Shown: piece after piece, positions 1,284 through 63,728 of the stretch
Numbering within the stretch: the stretch's first letter is position 1
How the letters are laid out: every line of letters begins with the position of its first letter
Origin: Gautieria morchelliformis
Taxonomy: Eukaryota > Basidiomycota > Agaricomycetes > Gomphales > Gomphaceae
Length of the DNA stretch: 64,000 bases
Assembly (NCBI GenBank): GCA_015179125.1
Contig: WHVA01000018.1
Location: forward strand, 310,001-374,000
Direction of reading: 5' to 3'
Notes under the pieces: generated by a model
The model's database searches: none
Told to the model about the DNA's origin: nothing
What the model saw: only the letters and a program-made list of their open reading frames with translations
Position numbers and translations under genes: made by a program

Positions 1284-2296
1284 CTACCTCCTGCCCTCCT
1301 CCCGTTGCAGTGGCATCGTCAGCTCTCCATGCGTTTTAGCGAATCTCTTGGTGGCTTGAATGTACCTGAACAAGTGTTTCATCGCCTTCGGCCTTCCCAG
1401 TAGAGTTTCTGCCATCGTGGCTCCTCTCCGCAGCTGCTTCCGTAACTCCTGTCTGTGCTTGTCATACGCCGGACATCTGAAGAGGTAGTGGTATACTGTT
1501 TCCTCCACTTTCTCGCAGGCTGGGCACAGCGGTGAGTCTGCCTTCCCTATTTTATGTAGGTGCTCATTGAGCGCCGCGTGTCCGGTCCTGAGTTGCACTA
1601 GAATGCTAGCGTGTCTTCTTGGTAGTTCTTGGCTGAGTCTGGTGTATGCTGTGGAGGGGATGGATTGGTCAATCTTGTGCGCTATGCGTGCTCGCAGGGA
1701 CCTATCGAACATTGCTTTTGCCTCCTGCCGTATGCTTTTTTGGAAGCGCTGTAGCTCGGCCGCTTTGCTCCTGGGCAGGATCCCTCTGCATTCAATTGGC
1801 ACGAATCTCTCCTCACTTGACTCTCCTCTTGCCGCTCTCTTGGCCTCCTCATCCGCTCTCTCGTTTCCCTCTACCCCTTCGTGCCCCAGCACCCACCTCA
1901 CTAACACTTTCACCCCGGGCTGCTGCTCTGTGACGCCTTGGATCTGCCTGTGTAGCGCATTTATCAGGAACTGCGCCGATATCGCCTTCTCCCTTCTGGT
2001 GGTTTGAATGGCCGCTTGATTGTCTGCCGCTATAACATACCTCCTTGCCCTCTCGGTGTTCAGCAGTTTGGCTCCCATGGCTGCCCCAACTAGCTCTGCT
2101 TCGAATACCGTGTGTTCATGCTCCTCCCCTAAGTACAGTCTCACCACCTGTTTCTCCACCCCCCCCCCCCCCTGTATAGTACTGCTGCCGCCCCTACCCC
2201 TCCCTCTATGCACGACCCATCTGTGTAGACTACGACATCTGCGGGATCTGTCCAGAGCTCATCAATTGCTTGCTGCTTGTCTTTGGGTATACGTAT
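1284..2296 (-). pseudogene. LINE-A RNase H domain and C-terminal Cys/His motif
   Basis: This is the 3' end of LINE-A ORF2. Just upstream in frame is a YTDGSC motif (first RNase H Asp); then come FEAE (Glu), AADNQAA (Asp) and NERADEEAK (last Asp), so all four catalytic acids of an RNase HI fold are visible. It ends with a CPACEKVEETVYHYLFRC-type Cys/His motif that these LINEs share. A stop (TAG, 2297-2299) separates it from the RT. LINE-B has Gln at that position, so this looks like CAG to TAG. A G-run at about 2160-2172 shifts the frame inside the domain. It would remove RNA from the RNA-DNA hybrid during retrotransposition but is now broken. Confidence 0.8.
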
Positions 2297-4767
2297 CTAG
2301 AACGATGGCACCCATTTCGGCCCGTGCACAACGGTTTGGATCTTTTCCATTGCTTCTGGTCGTAGTTCGAATGCATGGAAGATCTCATGTAATGGCGACC
2401 TATGCCTCCGTACGTATCTCGCTGCTGCCTTGCGGGCCTTAGGCGCTAATGGGTGTGTTGACGGCAAGCAAGCTATCCTCGTCGTCGCTCGATGGATGAT
2501 CTTCGCGACTAGCAGTGGGAATGGGTGGAGATTGGCGTGGGCGTCGAGTATGTCGTTCACCGTTGTGGTCATTGCTCCTGTTATGGATATCGCTGCCTGT
2601 CTCTGCACCCTCGCAAGTTTGTTTATGTTTCCTTTTGTCCCTTTGCTGTGCTTTGTGCCTGGGATGAGGAAGACATCAGCGGCGTACAGCATCCTTGGGA
2701 TCGCTACAGCTAGGTAAAATCTTCTCATGTACTTAGCTGTCGTCCCCTTCGTTGGCTTTGCAAGTCTCTTGTACTGTGCAATGTACATGTCCCCCTTCTT
2801 CAACGCGAAGTTGGTGTGGTCCTTGAACCGCAGTTCCTGGTCAATTATCACACCTAGGAACTTATGGGCGGCTACGGGCTCTATGACCTGTCGACCTATC
2901 GTTATGGACAGTCTGGTTATCGGCCTGCTCTTGTTAGGCTTTCCCGGATCCCGCTCACGTCTCCTGGTGAGCCCCATGAGCCCGAACTTGTCCACCGCGA
3001 AAGTGCACTGGTGTCGCTCTGCCCAGTCGCTGGCTCCGTCCCTTCTGCACATGGTGCTGTTCAACATGTTGAACGCCTCCTGTAGGTCTCTTCCTTCTGC
3101 CATCAGCGTAGTGTCATCGACGAAATCTACACAATCTTCCCCATTCTTCCGGTTGATCGTTTCGATTAGATCTGCGTTATAGAACTGATACGCTATCGCG
3201 GAGACTGGACACCCTTGGTCCATTCCCCGGCTGACCACTCTGGCTGGGGCGTCGAAATCGTCGAAACTTACAGTGGTCACTCTGTTTTCCACCCTTCTCC
3301 GTATCCATTCGGTATACGCCTGTGGTATTCCCCTGCAACGCATGTTGTGAGTCAGTCGATCCAACATGATTCTGGGGAAAGCCCCCTTGATGTCCAGGAA
3401 TAACAGTCCTAACACTCTTCCCTTTCTCCAGGCATCCTTGGCTGTTGCCACTGACAGAATGATAAGTTTCGAATAGATTGAGGATGCGGCCTTTGACTCG
3501 AGGCCGAGTTCGATATAGATCGCAAGAGATGAATAAAGCTCGAAGTTCGACTAATAACTCATAGTCAAACAAAGTATCAAGAAAGGTTCGTGTTCTTCGA
3601 TTCTTCGGTCATACACTGCGTACTACTTATAGCTACTCGGATAGGGGTCTCGGTACATGGGGATGAGCGACGGGGATAGTGGAACTGTGCATATGGTAGG
3701 TGCGTACATACCGCTGCTACTGTACATCCGTGCTGCGGATCGCTTACTCGGTCTAGCCTAGATGTGAGGCGGGATAGAGTGTCCTAGTGTGGCGGCTCGA
3801 GGGATGAGGCGGGATGGTAGGGGTGACTGGATAGGAACAATGTGTACGGCTCGAATGTAATGGAGAATATACGTCGTGCGCCCTGATCGTGATGTGGAAT
3901 AGACTCGATCCACCCTGGTACTCGGCTCGTCAGTTACACTCGTGTCTCGGCTCGACTCGTGATACGGATCTTGGATATAGGCTCGGCTCGGACTCGCTAA
4001 TGGACTCGGTGACTCATGTAGGCGCATGCGTGCGTTCTGGTACTCGGAATGGACTTGGATGGGTGCGCATGTGCGCCTTGGCTCGGATAGGGCTTGGATA
4101 TGGACGGTGAGTAGAGAGAGATAAATTACAACAGCCACGGTGTAGTAGATAGTGTCGGTGGTGGTGCGTCCCGGTCTACATCCGAAGTGGTTCTTGGGCA
4201 GTAGGTGATACCTCTCTGTCATTTTGACTATGTCCTCCGCTACACAGGCTGATAGGACTTTGCCTATCGTGTCTAGTAGAGCTATGGGCCTGTACGACCC
4301 TGGCAGCGTGTAGTCGCTCTTCCCTGGCTTGCGGAGCACTCGAGTGGTGGAGTCTCTCCATTCCTCCGGGTAGGTGTCGAGTTCGAATGTAGTGCGGTAC
4401 AGTGGACCTATGTAGGGTAGGAGCGTGTGAATACACTGTTTTATCAATATGTTATGGATACCGTTCGTTCCGGGGGCCTTGAAAGGGTTGAGTCTGTCTA
4501 CCGCTCTCCTGATTTGTTCGTCTGTGATTGGAGCGTAGTCGAAGGCCGGTTGGGGGTATCGGTAGTCCTCCTGTACTGCCTCAGTGTCTGCTCTCTCCTC
4601 TGGGAAGAACGTGTTGAAAAGCATGTCCGCTTTCTGCTCGTTGGTTTCTGCTACCCACTTGGACCCGTCGTCCCTTTTTGCCGTTAGGGTTGGTATACGC
4701 GTCCGTGCTCCGTCAGTTGGGTCTGCTGAGGCGTACTTGTGGGCCGTCCAGACTGTCTTTTGGTCGA
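2297..4767 (-). pseudogene. LINE-A reverse transcriptase, second copy (interrupted by solo LTR)
   Basis: Reading from 4767 downwards, the protein starts at the DQKTVWTAHKYASADP block and runs through the RT fingers and palm: RPIALLDTIGKVLSAC, the RPGRTTTD block, LLFLDIKGAFPRI (motif A) and GCPVSAIAYQFYNADL. The catalytic FVDDTT is intact in this copy. The frame is cut at 3452-4133 by a solo LTR; ignoring it, YTVA continues into TAKDAW with no shift. The frame ends at TAG 2297-2299. The N-terminal part repeats sequence already present at about 5990-7150, so the RT core is duplicated within LINE-A. Confidence 0.8.
3452..4133. mobile_element. Solo LTR 1 (682 bp, TSD GCCAC)
   Basis: The insert begins TGACAGAATG and ends TTACAACA, the TG...CA ends expected of an LTR. 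It is flanked by exact 5-bp duplications GCCAC at 3447-3451 and 4134-4138. The other LINE-A copy (near 6520) has the uninterrupted sequence, and the RT frame is continuous across the site. Orientation cannot be fixed because no internal region remains. Family not recognised. Confidence 0.88.
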
Positions 4768-5985
4768 ATGTCCAAGGCTTCTCGGGAACGGGAAGTTGTT
4801 TGAGGAGACCATAGGGTTTGTGACGTTGCGGCTTGCTTCGCATACAAGTGGTGCACGTCTTGCAATACTCCTTGACAAAGCATCTAATCCCTGGCCAAGT
4901 GTAGTCTCGTCGGATCAGCTCCAAGGTCTTGTTGACCCCGAAGTGTCCCAAGAGAATGTGGTTGTGCTTGTATTGCAGAATGCAAAGTCGAAGGTCTTGG
5001 GCCGCTGGAACATAGGTTCGGTTGTCAAGCTTGAGAAAGCCCTCGGGGTCTGTGGTCCACCTCAGATCATTAACCAAGCGGAGGTGCGACTTGGCTATGG
5101 GGTCCGAGGGGAGGTTCGCTAGTATGTCAGCTCGGATCTGCTCGGTATCAAGCATTGAAGCGGCTTGGAGTACGATGGGAGCGAGGTTAGTAGCTCTAAG
5201 GGACGATGCCAGCTGGTGTTGGGTAAACACTGGCCGTAGGTTCTGTGGGTTTATGGTGGCATAGTCGCTATTCCCCTCTTTAAGGTAGACGTCCCATCGT
5301 CTAGTGAGGGAGTCAGGCTTCGTTCCGAGGCGACCAGGTCAGAAACGTATGGCGAGGTTGAATTGGGACAGGTATTCTGACCACCGAGCTTGTCGACGGG
5401 TCAGGAGCTTCGTTGTTGAAAAGTATTCAAGGTTCTTGTGATCGGTGATAATGTCGACAGGGTCGCCAGAGCCCTCGAGGTAGTGTCGCCAGCGTTGAAA
5501 AGCTTCAAAAATTGCTAGGAGCTCCTTGTCGTGAACATCGTAGTTGAGCTCGGTAGAGGTGAATGTGCGGGAGTGGAAAGCGACGGGATGAAGTTCGCCT
5601 TCCAAGGTTCGCAGTGATAAGATTGCCGCTAAGGCATAATCTGAAGCATCAGTCTCTACGATTAGCGGAAGGTCAGGAATCCAGTGGGTAAGGATAGGAG
5701 AGGTAGTGAACGCCCTCTTCAGCAGGTTGAAGGCCTGCCAACAATCCTCCGAAAAGTTCCAAGGGGTACCCTTGCGGGTGAGTCGGGTGAGAGGAATGGT
5801 GATGTCAGAGTAGTTGTGAATGAAACGTCGGTAGAAGTTGGCGAAGCCGAGGAAGGATTGGATGTCGCGAACTTTGCGAGGTTCAGGCCAGTCTTGAATG
5901 ACCTTTACCTTGTTGTTCACCATAGTGAGACCCTCGGGAGAGAGTATGTAGCCGAGGAATTCAACCGAGTCGCGATGAAATTCAC
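4768..5985 (-). pseudogene. Ty3/Gypsy pol fragment (RT thumb, RNase H, integrase zinc domain) spliced into LINE-A
   Basis: On the minus strand this reads as a classical Gypsy pol segment. Visible are EFHRDSVEFLGYILSPEG, the SFLGFANFYRRFI block of the RT thumb, the RNase H segment (VETDASDYA, ITDHKNLEYF, RRQARW), and an H2C2 integrase zinc-binding domain (NHILLGHFGVNKT ... CKTCTTCMRSK). The integrase core is absent. One in-frame TGA (5339-5341) lies where RFRPG would be expected, consistent with CGA to TGA. No LTR or TSD bounds this segment. Both ends join LINE sequence in the same reading frame, near 5981-5986 and 4762-4768, so it arrived by a non-LTR route such as template switching or recombination. 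Confidence 0.85.
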
Positions 5986-31397: not shown

Positions 31398-31935
31398 TGT
31401 AGAGGACAGGAATTATAGGCAGTAGGTTCAGACTTGGTGCTCAAAAGAAGACTAGAAATTAATTCACTCTCTCAGTGAATTTAGTTGTCACTGTTAATAT
31501 TATACACTACCTAGAAATTAATTCACTACAGGATTTCTAGGTCAACAAATCGAAAGGAAACAAGACTAATTTACTTGCCTCTCTCAGTGAATTTAGTTGT
31601 CACTGAGAGAGGGGGGAAATGTGTCTCATGCGCATGTACTACTAGCCGGCACTTTAGCGCCCGTGATGCCACAGTGTGCCATGCTAAGCGCCCGTAGAAC
31701 GTAGCACGGTAGTGAACAGCCGCAGCTCAAAAAGGAAACTTGTCCACAACCACCCACAAAGGGTCGGTTGGACAGAACATGAAAAGAAGTAGAAATACAG
31801 CTTCGAAAAATCAAAGAAAAATTTGACAAATCATAGAATGAATGTCAGCATGGTTTCAAGTCAAAATCAAAAGAAATATGAATGGTGGAGTCTATTTGGC
31901 TTGATTTTGGTGCAGGAGCATAAATGCACCCAACA
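31398..31935. mobile_element. Solo LTR 3 (538 bp, TSD AGCTA)
   Basis: Begins TGTAGAGGACAGG and ends GCACCCAACA, flanked by AGCTA at 31393-31397 and 31936-31940. It lies in the 3' UTR of LINE-C. It contains a strong hairpin CCTCTCTCAGTGA...TCACTGAGAGAGG (about 31584-31618) plus a second partial copy of that stem, and a short inverted pair GGTGCA/TGCACC near its end. Same family as 62512-62999. Confidence 0.85.
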
Positions 31936-32127: not shown

Positions 32128-32322
32128 AAGTATATGTGGAGAAAATACTGGGCTCAAGCCCAGGTGTTTTGGAACCCTTCAAGACTTTGGTGTTATTGCT
32201 AACACTTCAATCTATCAGAATGTGTTGTTTACGAGAATCAAATAATATTAAACAATGCTGCAGCACAACTCCGGAAATAATTTAATATTTGTACCTTGGT
32301 TGCAATCCATGTAAGAACTAGT
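32128..32322. other. Unassigned AT-rich stretch
   Basis: About 200 bp between the LINE-C tail and the LTR. No feature is recognisable. If the LTR at 32323-33323 is a 3' LTR on the minus strand, this is its downstream flank. Confidence 0.35.
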
Positions 32323-33323
32323 TGTCAAGATTGGTTTTTAGGCATTAATATCGTGTATTAGTGAACACAGCGAATGCCCGAATAACTTGTGCGAATAAGT
32401 ATGCCGTTCGGCGAATAGATGAACCAATGAATGTTCACAAGGTAAGAGGGTTGCCCGAACGGGGCTCACCCTATCTACAGTTGTGGCGAAATAGCCCATG
32501 GCACTTGACGGTATAACGTGCAAGGTGTCATGGAAGGGCTGTCTAAGTAGCGACAATCCCTTCGCCGACAGCGCAGAAAATAGTTCGAAGGCTAAGGTAA
32601 CGAAGATGAAGTATGAGAACTCACCAGTGATGCCTAAGTCCTCTTCTGGTTGAAGATAGGAATCTCCAGGAGAAGGCTCAAGACGATGATCACAGCGAGG
32701 TCAAGTTTGCACAAGATGGACGGCATATGATAATTGAACTGAGGAATGTACATGCGAATGCAAACTACTTATATCGAATGCTCGTAAGGTATCAGCGAAT
32801 AGGAAAGCGGCCGTCGTGAGTCAGGGTTGGATAGGGGTGCGCAGTCATGATACTAAGTAGATAGAATAAACATACAATAGAGTGAGGGAAGAGTGCGAAC
32901 ATGAAACGACGGAGAGTAAAGGTGGCGAAGGCACTTATGTATGAAACCATGTCTTGGGACCCGCATACATGCTACCCTGCACGGACTCTTCGTCTACTGG
33001 GTTGATCCCACACGACCTACGGAAGGGACGTCCCGTGAACACACTTTGGCCATATGAACACCCAAAAGGGTTGGATTAAGAAGATGATGGGGTTAGTGAT
33101 GAACCATCATGCCGGGTAAATTGTATCGATCACATTTGATGGCGTGCCTGCTGGCAAAATGTGTGAGCAGCGAATAGCGGTTCGGAGAATGGGGCGAACA
33201 GCGGGTAGAGTGGACGTGGAGGGGGAGTGGTCGGTGGGTGCAGCGAACTCTGGCGAAGATGCTAGGGAGTGACGAGGGGGAACATAGAGGTAGTGCGGTA
33301 GGAGAAATAGACCGGTCATGACA
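32323..33323 (-). mobile_element. LTR of the TGTCATGAC family (1001 bp), probably a 3' LTR
   Basis: Read on the minus strand it starts TGTCATGACCGGTCTATTTC and ends CCAATCTTGACA, the same ends as the solo LTR at 60072-61310, with clear similarity at both ends and a ~240-bp length difference. Directly upstream on the minus strand is a purine-rich GGAGTGGGG run, which fits a polypurine tract. The flanking 5-mers (CTAGT and GCACC) do not match, as expected if this is one LTR of a once-larger element and not a solo LTR. Confidence 0.7.
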
Positions 33324-38432: not shown

Positions 38433-38706
38433 CTTAGGTAAGTCCCCTCTCATCGTTTACTCGTCGTGAAACTTGGTTAAGCACGGCCCACAGTCCAACC
38501 AATTCTTTAATGATCCTTTCACGATTTCTGGATGCGTTCTTCACGCCAGATCCATAATAATAACAGGCGCCGATGTTCACTCCCGTGAGCTGAATAACGG
38601 CAACGACATTTGCTGATTGGTATTGGGTTTGGTTAGCATGCTAAGTACACGAGGTACGGAGTGCCAACGACTTGCCTACCATCCCCAGATTTGCCAGGGC
38701 AGCCAT
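38433..38706 (-). pseudogene. 5' fragment of a NACHT/STAND receptor gene (left-arm copy)
   Basis: ATG at 38706-38704 opens MAALANLGM, then an intron (38613-38675) with a GC donor (GCAAGT) and AG acceptor. The next exon begins VANVVAVIQLTGVNIGACYYY and goes on to NASRNRERIIKELVGL. The match to the gene at 55586 ends near 38433, where LINE-D starts. It is part of the left arm of the inverted repeat and cannot make a receptor. Confidence 0.8.
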
Positions 38707-39735
38707 GGCGTCGTGTTGGTGAGAGTAGTCGAGAGCAGAGCGTGTGCACTGCTGGCTATCATGTTCCCACGACGTGCCAGGCACAGAACCTCACAACTTA
38801 CGGTTTGGCAGTGCCGCGCCAAAGCTGAATGCCATGCCACGATGCGCACACAGCACACATTCAATATTCATTGGCCACCGTATGAACAGGCAAGAAGGTT
38901 GCATTGCAATGCGGCAATGACGAGCGAGGGATCTGCAAGCAGCATTGAAGGCACCATCGCCCTGGGTCTCAACATAGCCAACGCAGTATGCAGACGACTG
39001 ACACGGTTTCTGGCAGTTATCTGGCTACTTTTGACGGATAACAGGACTACCGTGAATCCTGTGAGAAGAACATGGTCAGAATGTGTTGCTTGTTATACAC
39101 CGAATTTACAAGGCTCCCTGCAGTGCCGGCACCAGCGATAGCCCCCATCCACGTAGTTATGAGCCGGTTGGTTTACACTGGACGGGAGTACTCACCCACT
39201 GCCCGTCTAGCGCGAGAACCTTGCGAAACCCTTGCAGACAAGCATTGATGTCGGTTGCGGTGATAGCTGGCGTGAGGCCGGACACATGGATTCTCTCATG
39301 GTGGAGTAAAGCGGCCGCCATGTTCACCATTTCTCTACCATGGCGACTCACAGGCAGATGTCCCATTTTAGGTCTGCCATGAATATTAGTCTTCCCCTCA
39401 CCTGTCGGCCCCTTCACACACGTCATTACTTGCTCCCCGTCCCACCGTCAACGTCTCTAGCTCTCGTCGAATATCTCCCCATACCAGATGATTAATAACT
39501 CGTATTGATTCATGTGAGGTTTGGCGTTTAACGGCGTTTCATTAATGTGTTAGCACCGGCGTACTCGTGTCCCTGCTTGACATAATACCCTCTCCCCCGC
39601 GAACGATGCTCTGGACCTCCCCATGTCCTACATCTCAATGATCATTCACCTGTCTACTAACTGTAAATTTACACGAGTATCGACGACAGAGGTGCAGTCC
39701 ACTAACCTACGTTCGCAACAGGCCTTAGCCCAGCT

Positions 39736-55194: not shown

Positions 55195-55616
55195 TGTATA
55201 ACAAACAACACATTCTGGCCATTTTCCTTCTCACAGGATTCACGGTAGCCCTGTTAATCCGTCAAAAGTAGCCAAATAAATCCCAGAAACGGTGTCGGCA
55301 GTCTGCATATTGCGTGTGCCTATGTTGAGCTATGGTGCCTTGCCGCTGGCCGCAGATCCATCGTTGTCACTGCCACATTGCAATGCAACCTTCTTGCCTG
55401 CTCATACGGTGGACGATGAATATTGAATGTGTGCTGTGTGCGCATCGTGGCATGGCGTTCAGCTTTGGCGCGGTACTGCCAAAGGGATAAGCTGTGAGGT
55501 TTTGTGAGCGCCTGCCACGTCGTGGGCACACGATAGCCAGCAGTGCACACGCTCTGCTCTCGACTACTCTAACCAACACGACGCCATGGCTGCCCTGGCA
55601 AATCTGGGGATTGTAG

Positions 55617-55678
55617 GCAAGTCGTTGGCACTCCGTACCTCGAGTACTTAGCATGCTAACAAAACCCAATACCACCAG
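55617..55678 (+). other. GC-AG intron of the NACHT gene
   Basis: The donor is GCAAGT after GTAG, the branch-like CTAAC is at 55656-55660, and the acceptor is ACCACCAG. Only this non-canonical donor joins MAALANLGIV to ANVIAVIQ in phase. The left-arm copy keeps the same GCAAGT donor. Confidence 0.65.
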
Positions 55679-58600
55679 CGAATGTCATTGCCGTTATTCA
55701 GCTCACCGGAGTGAACATCGGCGCGTGTTATTATTATGGATCTGGCGTGAAGAACGCATCTAGAAATCGTGAAAGGATCATTAAAGAGTTGGTTGGACTG
55801 TGGGCCGTGCTTAAACAAGTTTCACGACTAGTAAACGATGAGAGAGGAGAGACTTCCCGATTGGAGACATCTTCTCGTTTGTTAGCTTTAAATGATATTC
55901 TTGATCATTGTGGTGGTGAGATGAGGAGTCTCCGGGCCGCGTTGGGTGGCGAGACGGAGAGTCACGAGATGGGAACTATCGAGGTGGCATCAGAGGGGAA
56001 CGTGGAGAGCATCGAGATGGGGCGTCTCGAGGCGGCAACGGATGACAACATGGAGAGTATCCAGGCGGCGCTGCGTGGCGATATGAAGAGTTTCCTGGCC
56101 GTGCTGGAAAAGCATCTTGGGCACAAAGGTGGCATGGAAGCATTGATGTGGCCACTAAACGAGGCCGAGTTTAATAAGACTGTCGACGGTATAGGCAAGC
56201 TCCAAGGCTTGTTGATGAATGCCATGCGCATAGATCAGACGTGCGTTGCACCTGCTATACGTTGACCTGATCCTAATTGTTTTGACAGACACTTGATCCT
56301 GGAGATTGATACTGGTGTCAAAGCCTTGGATGAAAAGACTGCTAAGATGATCCAGTCAGTTGATGAGGCGAAATTGCACCTGCATAGTGCGCAGCTGGAG
56401 ATGCTTGGTGGTTTGGAAGCCTTGAAGGGACAGAGTGTTGGGATCAAAGAGTCAATTGAACGGGCCGACCGGCGCATTGGGGAGGTCGCCGGAACGATAA
56501 TGGAAATACAGGACGGATTGAAAGCCGTGAAGGAACAGAGTACTGAGATCAACCACTTAGTGAAGCAGCACAAATTGCGTACGTTGAATTTCACTTGTGT
56601 TTGTTATAACGCAGTCGGCCCACGGCGGTTCTGACAAAATATTTTTGTAGAAGAACATCGTCGGGAGATCTATAAATGGTTGGGGGCTCCTGATCATGAA
56701 TCAAAGCACAGGAATGCCCGTAGCATGAGACATGACAGCACTGGAGAGTGGTTTGTGGAAGGAGAATGCTTCCAAGCATGGCGAGAGGCCCCTCGTTCTT
56801 TCCTTTGGCTCCACGGTATACGTGCGTCAGCTTCGCCCCATGATTGTCCTCTTCGCTGATAGACTGCAACAGCGGGCGCTGGGAAAACTATCCTATGGTG
56901 GGCATATCAATTCGTATGACCTCCACACTATCCTGCTAACGAATGAATGCGAACAGCTCGACCATCATCGATCAACTTTCACTTTACTGCAGCTCCAACC
57001 CTTCCCTCGGAGTGGCATATTTTTACTTTGATTTTAGCAACAAGGGCACCCAGCCAGATGCCATGCTTCGATCTCTGATCAGGCAATTGTCTGAACAATG
57101 CGCGAGTGCTTTCCCTGCCTTGGAGTCACTTTTTTCTCAGAGCGGGCAGGGTGGTGCGCACCGAGACCCAGGTCAAGAGGATCTGATGTCAACCTTGAAA
57201 ACTATCATCAGGAGCTTCCAGGCTGTGTATATTGTGTTTGATGCGCTTGATGAATGCCCCGAACGATCCAGGATTCTGATAGTGCTCAGGGAGGCCCATG
57301 GTTGGAAACTGGACACATTGCACCTGCTGGCAACGAGTCGAAAAGCGGGGGACATATCAAAGGCGCTGAGTGGCTTAGTTTCACATGAGGTTTCCATGGA
57401 CGAGAGTCTCGTCGACCATGATATCCAAGGCTATGTTTCCAGGAGAGTTGATATCGAATTTAGCATGTGCCCGGCAGAAGAGAAGGAAATGGTTAAGAGT
57501 ACCTTAATGAAGGATGCGCATGGAATGTAAGTGGTGATTTTACCTTCTTTGAAATAGTTGCTGATGGAAAGGGAAGGTTTCGATTGGTTAAATGTCAACT
57601 GGATGTGCTTGCAAATTGCCAATCTGCCTCTGCACTCGAGGAAGCACTCACGCATCTACCAAAGACGCTATATGAGACGTATGATCGAATTCTTGAGGCC
57701 ATCAATGAGGTCAATAGGCAGGATGCTCTGCGCTTGCTCAAATGGCTGGCTTTCTCTGTTGACACATTGTCAACCGAGGAAGCTCTGGATGTGATCGCTA
57801 CTGATCCTGATGCCAAAAAGGGACCTCTATTTGACAGTCGGCGGCGACCTTGGGGGGGTCCACAAGGCATTCTTTACATATGTTCAAGTCTAGTCACCAT
57901 TACATCCCGAGAGGATAGCAGCAATGAGGCCAGTACTGGTCACCATGATGACATGGTTCTCATCCCGAAAAACCGGAATGATCAGACTGGCACACTTTTC
58001 CGTGCGAGAATATCTGATCTCGGAACACCTTCGGACAAGCACAACCGCGCTTTTCATGTTACTATTTTGATGAGAAGGTTGCACATGTATTCATTGCGAA
58101 GGCATGTCTGGCATACCTGCTGCAATTTGACCAGGAAAATTGTATAAACTCAAATATGGCCCAGTCCTATCCACTATCTCACTATGCCTCAGTGAACTGG
58201 ATGTATCATGCCAGGTCAGATCCGGCTGGGGACCAGGATGATCTACATGGATTGATCATGATGCTCTTGGAGCCCATGAGTGCTGTTTATGTGAACTGGA
58301 TGTTGCTTTACTATGAGAGTGATCCATGGACAAGGTTTGGGACGGATCCTCTTTACATTGTGGCAGAAACTGGGTTGAAATGAGCATGCCAAGATCTGTT
58401 GAAGACAGGATCAGATGTGAATGCACCAAGAGGATTATATGGCACATCACTGCAGGTGGCTGCATCACAGGGTCATGATACGATTGTCCGGCTACTCCTA
58501 GAGAAGGGCGCAGATGTGAATGTGCAGGGAGGATGCTATGGGAATGCGCTGGGGGAAGGAGCATCAGGGGGTCATGATATCACTGTCCAGTTACTCCTAG

Positions 58601-58989
58601 AGAATGGCGCAGATGTGAATGTGCAGGGAGAACACTATGGGAGTGTCCTGGGGGTGGCGGCGTCATGGGGTCAGGATACAACTGTCAGGTTGCTGATAGA
58701 TAAGGGCATGGATGTGAATGCACAGGGTGGATTTTATGGCAATGTGCTACAGGTGGCAGAATCAGGGGGTCGTGATATGACTGTCCAGTTGCTCATAGAG
58801 AAGTGTGCAGATGTGAATGTGCAGGGGGGACACTATGGGAGTGAACTGGAGGCAGCAGGATGTCATGATACAACTGTCCAGTTACTCCTAGAGAATGGCG
58901 CGGATGTGAATCTGCAGGGAGGACACTATGGGACTGTGCTGGGGGTGGTGGTGTTACAGGGTCACGATACAACTGTCCAGTTCCTCATA

Positions 58990-59555
58990 GGAGGATGTTC
59001 ACATTGACAACAATGTATATTCTTCTAGGATATATTAGATATCTTTTAAAATATCAACCCTAACCAAATTCATAATCCATCATTTTGAGCAACTTGTATA
59101 TTGTGGACATCCTACATTTTTTTGAATGTTCAGATATTTTAAAAATATGGTTGTATGTGCTAAAGCATGGTGTGTATTGATATAACAGAGCAATTTCAGA
59201 GAGGATGTGGATGACTATATATTAAAAGTATACATGAAACATGTTAGATGTACAATCACAGAATATAGAAGCAAGTATGGACAATACCTGTACTATATTA
59301 TTATATATGGTTGAGAGATCTGATTAGAAGGTATGTTTAAAATAATATGCATGCATAGTACAAAGATATGTAACTATTGATGTTTAGACAATGGGTTATA
59401 CACCCTTTCCTGGGGGAGCAGCAGACTGTGAGCTTTGGGGCTAGGATTAAGCATGCCTTACAGGTGCTGGCAACTGCCTCAATTTTGAAATATTTTATGA
59501 AATATAGATGAGCTAAGCTATATATACATATATATGACATTTATAAACATCCTCC
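58990..59555. mobile_element. MITE (566 bp) in the ankyrin region
   Basis: Terminal inverted repeats GGAGGATGTT / AACATCCTCC and a 3-bp duplication ATA (58987-58989, 59556-59558). AT-rich, no ORF. Ignoring it, LLIEQQGADVNV reads through in frame. A 3-bp duplication fits PIF/Harbinger-type MITEs, but ATA is not their usual TWA, so the class is tentative. Confidence 0.8.
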
Positions 59556-60071
59556 ATAGAGCAGCAGGGTGCAGATGTGAATGTGCAGGGTGGATATTAT
59601 GGCAATGTACTACAGCTGGCGGCATCAGAGGGTCATGATACAACTGTCCAGTTGCTCATAGAGAAGGGTGCAGATGTGAATGTGCAGGGAGGACACTATG
59701 GGAGTGCACTGGAGGCAGCGGCATCAGGTGGTCATGATATGACTGTCTAGTTGCTTCTGGAGAATGGTGCAGATGTGAATGTGCAGGGAGGATACTATGG
59801 GAGTGCACTGGGGTGGCCGCATCAGGGGGTCATGATTTGACTGTCCAGTTACTCCTGGAGTATGGCGCAGATGTTAATGTGCAGGGAGGATACTATGGGA
59901 ATGCACTGGAGGCAGCAGCGATAGAGGGTCACGATACTACTGTTTGGCTGCTCAGAGAGAAGGGTGCCGTTGTCGATGCTCAAGGAGGAAAGTATGGTGG
60001 TGTACTGCAGGGGGCAGTTGTGCATGGTCTCGATGAGATTGTCTCATTGCTGCTGGAGATGGCTGCAGTGG

Positions 60072-61310
60072 TGTCATGACGCGTTTATTCCTCATACTCA
60101 GGTGCTCTGTCCTACCATTTCTCACCCCATTTCCATGTTCGTTCCGATCGCCATTGTCATGTTCGGCAACCGATGCTCGCTGTTCACGCCAATTACCATC
60201 GCCACACCGTCAAACGCACGATCGACGTCTTTGGACTGACTTGGCAATCATCACTGGGTCTACCACCTCTGCTCGACCCTCTTCCGATGGTGTTCTGATC
60301 ATTGGATTGTCATGACCTGTGTATTTCCTGCACCTTGGTATCCCCAGTTTCCCTTTCGCTACTCCTCCTCAGTGTTCGCTCGGCTTCGCCCTCCACCTCG
60401 ACCCCTCTTCCTCTATGTCACCTCTGTTCGCCCTTCCTTGCATTTCACCGAACGGCCATTCGCTGCTCGCATCATTCGCCAGCAGGCACACCATCAAATA
60501 CGATCGATACCATTCACCCGGCATGATGGTTCATCATTAACCCCATCATCTTCTTAATCCAACCCCATTGGGCATTCGTATGGTCAAAGTGTGTTCGCAG
60601 GACACCCCTTCCATAGGTCGTGCGGGATCAACCCAGTAGACCAAGAGTCCGTGCAGGGTAGCATGTATGTGGGTCCCAAGACATGGCATTGTCCATAAGT
60701 GCCTTCGCCACCTTTACTCTCCGTCGTTTCATGTTCTCCCTCGTCTCACATTTTATTGTATGTTTATTTCATCTATGTTGTATCATGACTGCGCACCCCT
60801 ATTCAACCCTGACTTGTGACGGCCTCTTTCCTATTCGCTGATACCTTACGAGCATTCGATATAAGTAGTTTACCTTCGCATGTATATTCCCCAGTTCAAT
60901 TATCATATGTCGTTCACCTTGTGCAAATTTGACCTCGCTGTGGCCATCATCTTAAGCCTTCTCTTGGAGATCTCCACCTTCGACTAGCAGAAGACTTAGG
61001 CACCACTGGTGAGTTCTCATACTTATTCTTCGCTACCTTAGCCTTCGAACTATTTTCTGCGCTGTTGGCGAAGAGATTGTTGAGACTTAGACAGCCCTTC
61101 CGTGAGACCTTGCACGTTACATCGTCAAGAGCCACGGGCTATTTCGCTACAACTGTAGATAGGGCGAGCCCCGTTTAGGCAAACCCTCTTACCTTGTGAA
61201 CATTCATTGGTTCACCTATTCGCTGAACGGCATACTTATTCGCACAAGTTATTCGGGCATTCGCTGTGTTCACTAGTACATGATATTAATGCCTAAAACC
61301 AATCTTGACA
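60072..61310 (+). mobile_element. Solo LTR 5 (1239 bp, TSD AGTGG; TGTCATGAC family)
   Basis: TGTCATGACGCG...CCAATCTTGACA flanked by AGTGG at 60067-60071 and 61311-61315. The orientation is opposite to the LTR at 32323-33323; plus is chosen because the TGTCATGAC end abuts a polypurine-like run in that copy. It sits between the ankyrin repeats and the TUP1-like part, and the frame is continuous when it is ignored. Confidence 0.92.
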
Positions 61311-61315
61311 AGTGG

Positions 61316-63728
61316 TCCCTAATGTGAAGCCAAATATGATATTGCCAGAGTTGAAGTTGGTGTATTGTCAGCCCTGTAATAGACATCTTTCCATCACCCC
61401 ATGTACTCATTTCCCTCTTTGGTAACAGGGAGCCGGATGGGTAGCCACTCTCAGCAAGCATGACCCGCAGTGTCGAGTAGACATTGATTTGATGCATACA
61501 TTGGAGCATGATCATGACAGGCGGTCAGTCACCATTGCCAAGTTGTTTGTGCCCTTTGTTTTGTTTTGTTGAGATTTATGGCTGGGTCAAGCTTCATGCC
61601 CCTCATTTCTTGTTCATCTAGCAATTCTATACTAACCTGGCACCTTCCAGGCATGTATTCTCCAACTGCTTCTCAGCCGATGGCCACTACTTTGTGACTG
61701 AGTGTGAACAGTCTGTGCAGATATACGACATGACCACTGGGGCAAGGACATGGTGAGTGGTAGCCCATTCCCCTATTTCACGTCATCTCCTCTTCCTTCT
61801 GCCCTCATCTTGCCTGCACATTGACCACACTCACACCAGTGTGCTCATTCATGATACCGCTTTTGGCCACCCCTTCATCGACAGTGTGTGTTTCAGCCCT
61901 GATGGGACACTCCTCGTGACAGGTGCTTATGATAGCAAGATTAGAGTGCGTGTTTCCTCACATCATTGGCTGACACATCATTTACCCCATCGCCTACTCC
62001 TTGACTCCTGCAATACACTCATTCATGGACTATGTGTTTCCTTTCACCTGCATATTTATCCCTTGCAATCCTGGTATCCTGTCACTTCATGTCACTGTCA
62101 GATATGGGACATTGCCAACAAGCGCATCCTCTCCACCTTTGAGGGTCATAATGATTGTGTTACTTACCTCACCTTCTCATGTGACGGCTGCCTCCTTGTT
62201 TCCAGATCCTGGGACAACACTGTGTGCATCTTGAACATGAGGACCAAGCAGCACAAGACACTGTCAGCCACAGTACCAATGCATGTGTGTATTATTGTCT
62301 ATCATCATGTGTGGTGTGCTGATGCACCTTGTCATGCTGTTGTGCTTATGCTGGGTGTTCATGCCTGGGTATGATGTCTTTGTGTCGGTTTTGGCTTGCA
62401 ATATGTAGCTCGGCAACATATTCTCTGTTGCCATCTCTTCCGACAGGGGCCTAGTCGCCGCAGGCTACCCTGACACTGTCGTGCGCCTCTGGGATGTCCA
62501 GACCAGGCAACTGTTAGCAACTAGGGGCTATGGCAGGGAAGGTTCGGTAGAGTTCTTAGAAAGCTAGAATCAAATACACTCTCTCAGTGAATTTATTGTC
62601 ACTGATATATTAATACAGTACCTAGAATCAAATACACTACATGATTTTCAGTCAACATGCTATGTAAATATGAAAGATATTACTCGCCTCTCTCAGTGAA
62701 TTTATTGTCACTGAGAGAGGAGTACAATCCTGTCTCAGAAGGCATATACGTGCACCCGGCCCTTTAGCGCTCAAGAGCTCGCGCGTCGAAGTCATTTCAA
62801 ACTCCGCTGGGTGCAGCCGCCTGTGAAAATAGAAATAACAATGTGGAATGGAGAGATAGGGAGTGACTGGAAAATTTCGAAAATAAGCAGAGAAGTGGAT
62901 GCATGGTACAAGAACAGTATGAGAAAAGATTGAAACACCACACAATAAATTGAACATATTATGCTTGATTTTGGTGCAGGAGCATAAATGCACCCAACAG
63001 CAACTTGTCAATTGTCTCGTTGGTCACACTCACTGCGTGTCTAGCGTGGCGTTCATGCCTGACGGAATGGGTCTTGTAAGTGGGAGCTGGGACCAGACAG
63101 TGAAGCACTGGGACTTGGGGCCATTGCTAAGGAGTGCGTAGAGGGGGTATGGAGTGGGTGTGGATGATGTGGGCTCGGCCACAAAGGAGAGTGGGGAGAA
63201 TGAAGGTGTGTGCATGTGTACAGTTGAGTTTTTGGGACATATGGTGCGTGGCAGGCCACCCTACCTGCACTTCCTTTTACTCTCCCTTGCGCACTGTTGG
63301 CGCTTGTAAATCTTCACTCTTCATGGTGATACTCATTACTGTGAATATAGGGTGCAGTGTTCTCCATCGCTGTATCCCACGACAACCAGTGGGTTGTCTC
63401 AGGTTCGGATGACCGGAGCATGCGGTTCTGGGACCTGCGCACAGGGGAAGTGCAGCTCATACTGCATGGACACAAGGATTCCGGTACGTCCCACCTAGCG
63501 CATTTGTATCATGAGTGTGTGGGACTCATTTCTAATTTCTCAATGCATGTGTGTATGCACCCACCTGTAGTTTGGTCTGTCGGCCTGAGCCAGACGGGGG
63601 CCATGCTCGCTACCAGCAGCCTGGATGGGCACGTGAAATTATGTGCGTGCCTGTCACTCATTAATGCACACAGGAAACTCATCGACGCTGACGGTTGACT
63701 CGCAGGGAGCTATACAGCGCATCAGTGA
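61316..63728 (+). pseudogene. TUP1-like WD40 module, seven blades, LTR-interrupted
   Basis: Exons: 61316 to about 61357; 61429-61523; 61651-61752; 61840-61945; 62102-62284; 62409-62511 rejoining 63005 to about 63112 when the LTR is ignored; about 63353-63490; about 63571-63640; 63706-63728. It opens VPNVKPNMILPELK and GAGWVATLSKHDPQCRVDID, then LMHTLEHDHD. This PELK...GW...HTLEHD linker is the segment that precedes the propeller in TUP1 co-repressors. Blades include CFSADGHYFVT, SVCFSPDGTLLVTGAYDSKI with IRIWDIANKR, NIFSVAISSDRGLVAAGYPD with VRLWDV, HCVSSVAFMPDGMGLVSGSW and [17 protein letters not shown], ending VKLWSYTAHQ. The Ssn6-binding N-terminal helix of TUP1 is absent; the frame comes directly from the ankyrin region. 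Family role: transcriptional co-repression; role here unknown. Confidence 0.82.
62512..62999. mobile_element. Solo LTR 6 (488 bp, TSD GCAAC)
   Basis: TGTTAGCAACTAGGGG...GCACCCAACA flanked by GCAAC at 62507-62511 and 63000-63004. Same family as solo LTR 3: both have the CCTCTCTCAGTGA...TCACTGAGAGAGG hairpin and the same 3' end. Ignoring it, VQTRQLVNCLVGH reads in frame through a WD40 blade boundary. Confidence 0.88.

Follow-up and report, generated by a model that had tools for sequence, protein, structure and literature searches.

Plant receptors of the NLR-ID type capture a whole domain from another gene of the host, and such integrated domains are usually taken as baits. In the HET-D and HET-E proteins of fungi, the WD repeats are alike one another and vary through repeat exchange. 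The variation of these HNWD proteins in Podospora is focused on the top face of the propeller behind the NACHT domain, according to the extracts of PMC1805685 drawn on here. More generally, fungal NLR or STAND proteins possess a NACHT P-loop and a Walker-B-like motif, carry C-terminal superstructure-forming repeats, and belong to large paralogue families with damaged copies, in a pattern of birth and death (extracts of PMC4986451); the same extracts describe Pucciniomycotina as being without NLRs. Likewise, extracts of PMC12258605 describe Sordariales NLRs with an extra C-terminal domain that is sometimes accompanied by ankyrins (SPRY) or resembles a resident gene (kinase), 92% of such domains being found in one to three NLRs.

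The gene family described here, one member of which lies decayed in a 64,000-nucleotide stretch of DNA from Gautieria morchelliformis (the whole stretch analysed, hereafter the window), is comparable to all of these systems. It shares the NACHT motifs, C-terminal repeats, paralogy and damage of the fungal NLRs, the focus of variation seen in HET-D/HET-E, the extra C-terminal domain of the Sordariales receptors, and the capture of a domain from another host gene that marks plant NLR-IDs. Unlike other fungal NLRs, it joins ankyrin repeats and a complete, non-repetitive propeller of the co-repressor Tup1 in one chain, and this propeller derives from a named housekeeping gene. Whereas the Sordariales receptors carry other domains, each in few proteins, about 30 copies seem alike here; in contrast to HET-D/HET-E, each of the seven Tup1 blades has stayed distinct and highly similar internal WD repeats are absent; and the mimic-of-donor reading familiar from plant NLR-IDs is not supported for the fused Tup1 propeller. 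The Tup1/Tup11 co-repressor itself (1ERJ) is matched in its linker, its seven blades and, for the Tup1 of this fungus, eight intron positions, but the fused copies lack Tup_N and have lost the partner contact positions. Searches of the open PMC library turned up no account of a NACHT protein with a Tup1 propeller, and in extracts from part of the literature that names both, Tup1 serves only as a structural reference.

The decayed gene in the window

The gene in the window consists, in order, of an N-domain, a NACHT domain, ankyrin repeats, a Tup1-type linker and a seven-bladed propeller, laid out as follows:

55586-63728, plus strand: decayed gene, whole span, with ATG at 55586 and TGA at 63726-63728, read from the sequence
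55586-56578, plus strand: exons 1-3, N-terminal domain (MAALANLGIV...IAVIQLTG...) and a coiled-coil-like part, 87.5% and 89% identical to the related locus L043; exon limits about 55586-55634, 55679-56240 and 56289-56578, set by eye from the L043 splice pattern
56651-57526, plus strand: NACHT (Pfam NPHP3_N, 9.7e-23), 91-98% identical to L043; exons about 56651-56821, 56873-56897 (P-loop) and 56957-57526 (VYIVFDALDECPE, LLATSR)
57577-58383, plus strand: post-NACHT part, the start of the large exon, with frame breaks near 57970 and 58050
58384-60071, plus strand: ankyrin array (Pfam Ank_2, 9e-31)
60072-61310, plus strand: solo LTR of 1239 bp with ends TGTCATGAC...TCTTGACA, exactly at the ankyrin-Tup1 junction
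61311-61523, plus strand: Tup1-type linker, VVPNVKPNMILPELKL, phase-0 intron 61360-61428 (the same intron as in the own Tup1), GAGWVATLSKHDPQCRVDIDLMHTLEHD; the donor of the first exon is at 61360 and the second exon (GAGW...HTLEHD) spans 61429-61523
61651-62545, plus strand: propeller blades 1-4, exons 61651-61752, 61840-61945, 62102-62284 and 62409 to about 62545
about 62546-62988 (ends approximate), plus strand: insert that parts blade 4 from blade 5; a relative lies at 31446-31935, both measuring about 0.45-0.5 kb
62989-63728, plus strand: propeller blades 5-7 and end, exons about 62989-63243, 63351-63483, 63571-63642 and 63706-63728, closing with LWSYTAHQ before the TGA

The solo LTR is flanked by AGTGG target duplications (60067-60071 and 61311-61315) and matches window positions 32322-33323 at 85% over 1007 bp. 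The ankyrins form two blocks, 58387-58995 and 59556 to the LTR, which are separated by an A/T-rich insert at about 58997-59555; their repeats match one another at 73-83% in a self-comparison of the window, and an in-frame stop lies at about 59747. The insert between blades 4 and 5, at 62558-62999 in the self-comparison, matches its related copy at 77% over 219 bp and at 95% over the last 43 bp, and a further stop, at 63139, falls inside the region of blades 5-7. With the LTR, two further inserts, frame breaks and stops, the window copy is dead. The first-pass annotation had placed both the gene and the solo LTR correctly, as re-reading confirmed; it had not listed the two further inserts, the two frame breaks of the post-NACHT part or the stop at 63139. 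No Pfam family scored above cut-off in the window's N-domain pieces.

One gene, present in many copies

Relatives were sought in the window's own assembly (122 Mb, 1113 contigs), using the Tup1-like part as the query. Four close relatives emerged from this search, all with a NACHT gene upstream and the order kept. Eight loci share the window's order of parts and strand (L043, L045, L047/48, L049, L056-L058 and L059); L056-L058 and L059 were selected since linker and N-domain matches adjoined each other there, and the N-domain of L047/48, which lies outside the stretch first compared, was found in a separate search. L043 is located on the window's contig, approximately 38 kb away, and its uninterrupted junction reads ...SLLMEMAAVVPNVNPNMTLPELKL in a single frame. 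Because such a junction exists, the frame bridge in the window is not a chance reading, and the earlier observation that ankyrins and linker join in frame, once the LTR and one copy of the target duplication are ignored, is borne out.

The same junction recurs in the other copies. In g43, g56 and g57, a single open exon extends from the post-NACHT part through the ankyrins into a PELKL-type end; in g45 and g58 the open exon begins inside the post-NACHT part before continuing in the same way, and exon 1711-3262 of g59 is likewise open through the ankyrins into such an end. Ankyrin motifs number 6 to 18 in these six fusion exons, and a GT donor comes after the PELKL-type end. The spliced model of C352 yields a 1432-residue chain with no stop and no frame break, and Pfam recognizes NPHP3_N (1.6e-41), Ank_2 (4.3e-60) and WD40 (4.4e-56) in this one predicted protein; its NACHT domain possesses the P-loop HGIPGAGKT and the acidic Walker-B-like motif VYIVFDALDECPE, and its N-domain has no Pfam match among the best 25 of 58 families. 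C444 provides a second open spliced model, with a small first exon left unplaced. These open copies need unusual donors (GTTCCC in both, and GTCATG additionally in C444), and C204/L043 is open solely with a shorter donor in the loop between blades 5 and 6. Among the remaining loci, C708 has one stop, C338 one frame break, C134 one frame event (four in another model, with the query partly out of frame), L049 a junction that is out of frame, and L047/48 a stop in the NACHT part. Nine loci were read in total: two are open throughout as modelled (C352 and C444), one perhaps, and six have breaks.

At least 42 Tup1-type clusters, picked by hand, are present in the genome, and in at least 31 of them a NACHT match lies upstream, no more than 13 kb away and on the same strand; of the 45 best NACHT matches, 28 are paired with a Tup1-type cluster. 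Approximately 30 fused genes, multiplied by repeated duplication, seem to be present. Intron-rich genes together with numerous NACHT genes would suit an agaricomycete. The clusters were drawn from queries of linker plus blades 1-2 of two members, and the counts are lower bounds, as the candidates scored numbered 150 of 824 and 150 of 574 for the Tup1-type queries and 150 of 175 for NACHT. Generic-WD40-like matches (long open frames, about 30-40% identity) were excluded by eye, a few weak Tup1-type rows (30-37%) were retained, and all 124 NACHT rows were used.

The LTR-interrupted window copy alone cannot show that the ankyrin and Tup1 parts are anything other than two adjacent genes. At the sequence level, this reading is contradicted by the uninterrupted exon across the junction in the other copies, and the order of parts is constant in at least 31 of the 42 clusters. 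Furthermore, g45 offers a separate propeller gene no start codon near the junction (no in-frame Met in the 33 codons before the junction or in the stretch after it); the other fusion exons have at least one in-frame Met just before the junction. Two unfused neighbors are scarcely credible, and the parts, as judged from these sequences, belong to one gene and the fusion is real. The original suggestion of one ancestral gene with N-domain, NACHT, ankyrins and Tup1 propeller is upheld by the same make-up in eight loci, and the search of the fungus's own genome for intact relatives turned up C352 and C444, both open as modelled, so the parts are not always separate genes.

Eleven clusters are without NACHT upstream. 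Three are the Tup1-type genes at C419, two of which were read, and the other eight, linker or blade matches at C201:36.6 kb, C202:182.8 kb, C278:115.3 kb, C394:69.4 kb, C484:84.9 kb, C636:1.9 kb (a contig end), C713:54.7 kb and C770:150.2 kb, may be fragments, single Tup1 paralogues or other fusions.

Descent of the propeller from Tup1

C419 contains a Tup1 gene with Tup_N and, at about 40-42 kb, a tandem Tup1-like copy without a Tup_N match. Both, as read by eye, give ...SELKKE (PSELKKE in the own Tup1), a phase-0 intron and GSDW..., and the fused genes read ...PELKL, a phase-0 intron and GSGW..., with the intron placed as in Tup1. Eight intron positions and phases (two by eye) are common to the fused genes and the own Tup1 in a comparison of L043, six loci, both Tup1 genes and the window, not every intron being modelled in every copy; one additional Tup1 intron is absent from the modelled fused copies. 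Most modelled fused copies end in LWSYT, as does Tup1. Tup_N (PF08581) was not found in the fused genes, and the search of the own genome matched C419 and C1048 only.

In a tree of the propellers, eight fused copies group with two Tup1 genes at 100/100, to the exclusion of 11 generic WD40 rows from the same genome. These 11 were kept from 14 loci tried, three (L023, L026 and L031) having been dropped for possessing fewer than seven motifs. A clade of the fused copies to the exclusion of Tup1 is weak (48/34, full tree). Such a clade is better supported in a short tree that includes yeast Tup1, where the fused rows are placed next to three Tup1 rows (93/90); the first outgroup set, belonging to this short tree, was discarded because it contained frames unlike WD40. 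In PDB searches, 1ERJ ranked approximately 52nd, 8th and 6th, and 8th, 3rd and 5th with linker-to-blade pieces, which matched it in one stretch extending into the linker; 5afu chain 3 was matched likewise. Since repetitive WD40 proteins profit from their repeats, this ranking does not settle ancestry.

Judging by tree, introns and linker, all of which agree, the fused propeller is Tup1 by descent. The first-pass annotation had assigned the linker to TUP1 rather than to generic WD40 repeats and had proposed setting the propeller against genuine Tup1, and the propeller indeed falls inside the Tup1 group. A generic WD40 origin was rejected on the same three grounds, and a retrocopy of Tup1 was rejected as the introns are kept. 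Because the linker intron is shared by the fused genes and Tup1, the fusion breakpoint lies inside the Tup1 exon before it, and because Tup1 introns are shared, the donor was genomic DNA, with Tup_N and the middle region left behind. It is mainly the shared breakpoint and intron that point to a single fusion.

Three Tup1-type clusters lie in tandem at C419:36-48 kb (L051 and L054), the third from weak matches; Tup_N was matched beside only one of them, so Tup1 itself seems to be tandemly duplicated. Additionally, L052 (C1048:115000-124999) has a Tup_N-like domain at about 5180-5450 with no Tup1 propeller match within 20 kb, and is perhaps a broken Tup1 copy.

An altered and variable top face

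Extracts of PMC3419727 give three contact positions per WD40 blade (R1-2, R1 and D-1) and list seven Tup11 residues that are required for Fep1 binding. The contact positions were mapped on a MAFFT alignment, where 20 of the 21 were used, blade 1 being without the Asp. The two own Tup1 copies agree at 19 of these 20 positions. Between fused copies and Tup1, identity is 23/316 (7%) at the top face versus 3008/4941 (61%) elsewhere; among eight fused copies it is 125/546 versus 5899/8974, and 145/712 versus 7552/11540 when a ninth is included. None of 100,000 random column sets was as extreme as the top face. Each of the seven Fep1 positions, as mapped here, is altered in at least eight of nine fused copies, and tryptophan occupies 22 of 158 top-face positions in the fused copies (13.9%) versus 2.4% elsewhere. 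Columns from the spliced aligner (17 sites, with gaps misplaced), which the MAFFT alignment replaced, gave identities of 0.298 versus 0.682, leaving the direction unchanged. The blades are distinct from one another in the alignment (by eye); internal repeat likeness is found in the ankyrins, where lag-33 identity is 0.49-0.74. For the predicted contact positions, both the variability of the top face and the loss of Tup1 contact residues are firm.

The propeller is under constraint at the protein level. Pairwise comparison of eight fused copies (28 pairs) gives a dN/dS of 0.19-0.32 for the NACHT part, with 0.60 for the young pair of window and L043, and of 0.28-0.55 for the propeller; by the latter range, the propeller has been maintained as a protein since the fusion. 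A codon model fitted by maximum likelihood to nine copies gives an omega of 1.245 at top-face positions and 0.546 for the rest. In the open pair C352 and C444, 11 of 20 top-face residues differ, and dN of the top face (0.51) compares with a dS of 0.19-0.25 outside it. Measured against the dS of NACHT part and propeller combined, top-face dN is higher by a factor of 2.36 (17/48 sites; p of 0.005 in a one-sided binomial test), and omega is 1.10 when scaled to the 12 synonymous sites of the top positions themselves. Pooled NG86 counts over eight copies give 0.93 for the top sites, and the close trio of window, L043 and L047 shows no top-face excess, its omega being 0.62 for these sites and 0.57 for the others. 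The case for positive selection on the top face is suggestive only.

What the captured propeller might do

The propeller might be an integrated decoy, mimicking Tup1 so as to trap an intruder's effector aimed at the co-repressor. Its origin in a resident host protein, as told by introns and tree, would suit such a role; plant-pathogen effectors target TOPLESS co-repressors, according to the extracts of the literature drawn on here, and the extracts of PMC12258605 name putative integrated decoys in Sordariales NLRs, a kinase at the C-terminus among them. A mimic with 7% top-face identity to its model is nevertheless unlikely, given that every Fep1-binding position is altered in nearly all fused copies and that these copies differ from one another, although the side or bottom of the propeller might still act as bait. 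The first-pass annotation had offered the propeller as a bait or an effector, and in its simple form, as a Tup1 mimic, the bait is not supported, Tup1's contact face being lost and the most variable part. The effector, taken to mean a functional co-repressor, loses ground through the absence of Tup_N. Tup11 contacts Fep1 through the top face of its propeller (extracts of PMC3419727) and Tup-type propellers bind transcription factors by that face (extracts of PMC2882346), so that a fused propeller could recruit or block Tup1-Cyc8 partners and alter transcription directly upon activation. The same contact positions are lost, however, and Tup_N, which oligomerises and binds Ssn6 (extracts of PMC2882346), is absent from the fused genes, rendering such an output very unlikely.

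A passenger tail with no ligand, whose surface drifts and whose fold is retained for stability, would account for a top-face omega near 1 in the pooled counts and for the close trio without an excess, as a ligand-free surface would drift too. It would not readily account for the enrichment of tryptophan at the top face, for the top-face dN of the open pair, which exceeds the dS of its NACHT part and propeller, or for the constraint on the propeller in the eight copies compared, and a mere passenger is quite unlikely. The reading we prefer, at a probability of roughly 0.6, is that of a Tup1 scaffold within a NACHT-ankyrin receptor family, remodelled into a diversified sensor, the window copy being a dead member. 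It is favored because the fused genes have shed the Tup1 partner face and Tup_N and retain the fold, the linker and their connection to NACHT and ankyrins. More tentatively, and at somewhat less than even odds, a single fusion gave rise to the approximately 30 copies, in which the docking face, released from the partners of Tup1, was driven by selection to diversify as a variable recognition end.

A plausible sequence of events would begin with a duplicated piece of Tup1 that was joined, inside the exon just before the linker intron, to the last ankyrin repeat. Ankyrins and propeller together would form a composite sensor, the Tup1 fold serving as a scaffold in the way generic WD40 repeats do in HET-D/HET-E, rather than replicating the docking site of Tup1. 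The top face would bind varied ligands, either non-self or stress proteins or host proteins altered by them; NACHT would then oligomerise with ATP, and the N-domain would signal, probably to cell death or incompatibility. We infer ligand, signalling and outcome by analogy with fungal NLRs. If true, this would represent a third fate for a domain captured by an immune receptor: beside the mimic and the output module, a new sensor scaffold. The choice between mimic and new sensor is directly testable because the ancestor is known, work on other fungi has mapped its contacts, and some 30 copies seem to be present; moreover, a defined, predicted ligand-binding face would offer a handle for finding what fungal receptors of this kind recognise.

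Possible exchange between copies and a truncated second copy

The two halves of the gene differ greatly in dS in some pairs: NACHT part and propeller give 0.07 versus 0.27 for window and L043, and 0.71 versus 0.27 for L043 and L047, which suggests exchange between copies. Finally, the region upstream of the receptor and its first two exons recur in the window, truncated, at 38437-39099 on the minus strand; this second copy is 90% identical over 665 bp to 55195-55848 and then breaks off into other sequence.
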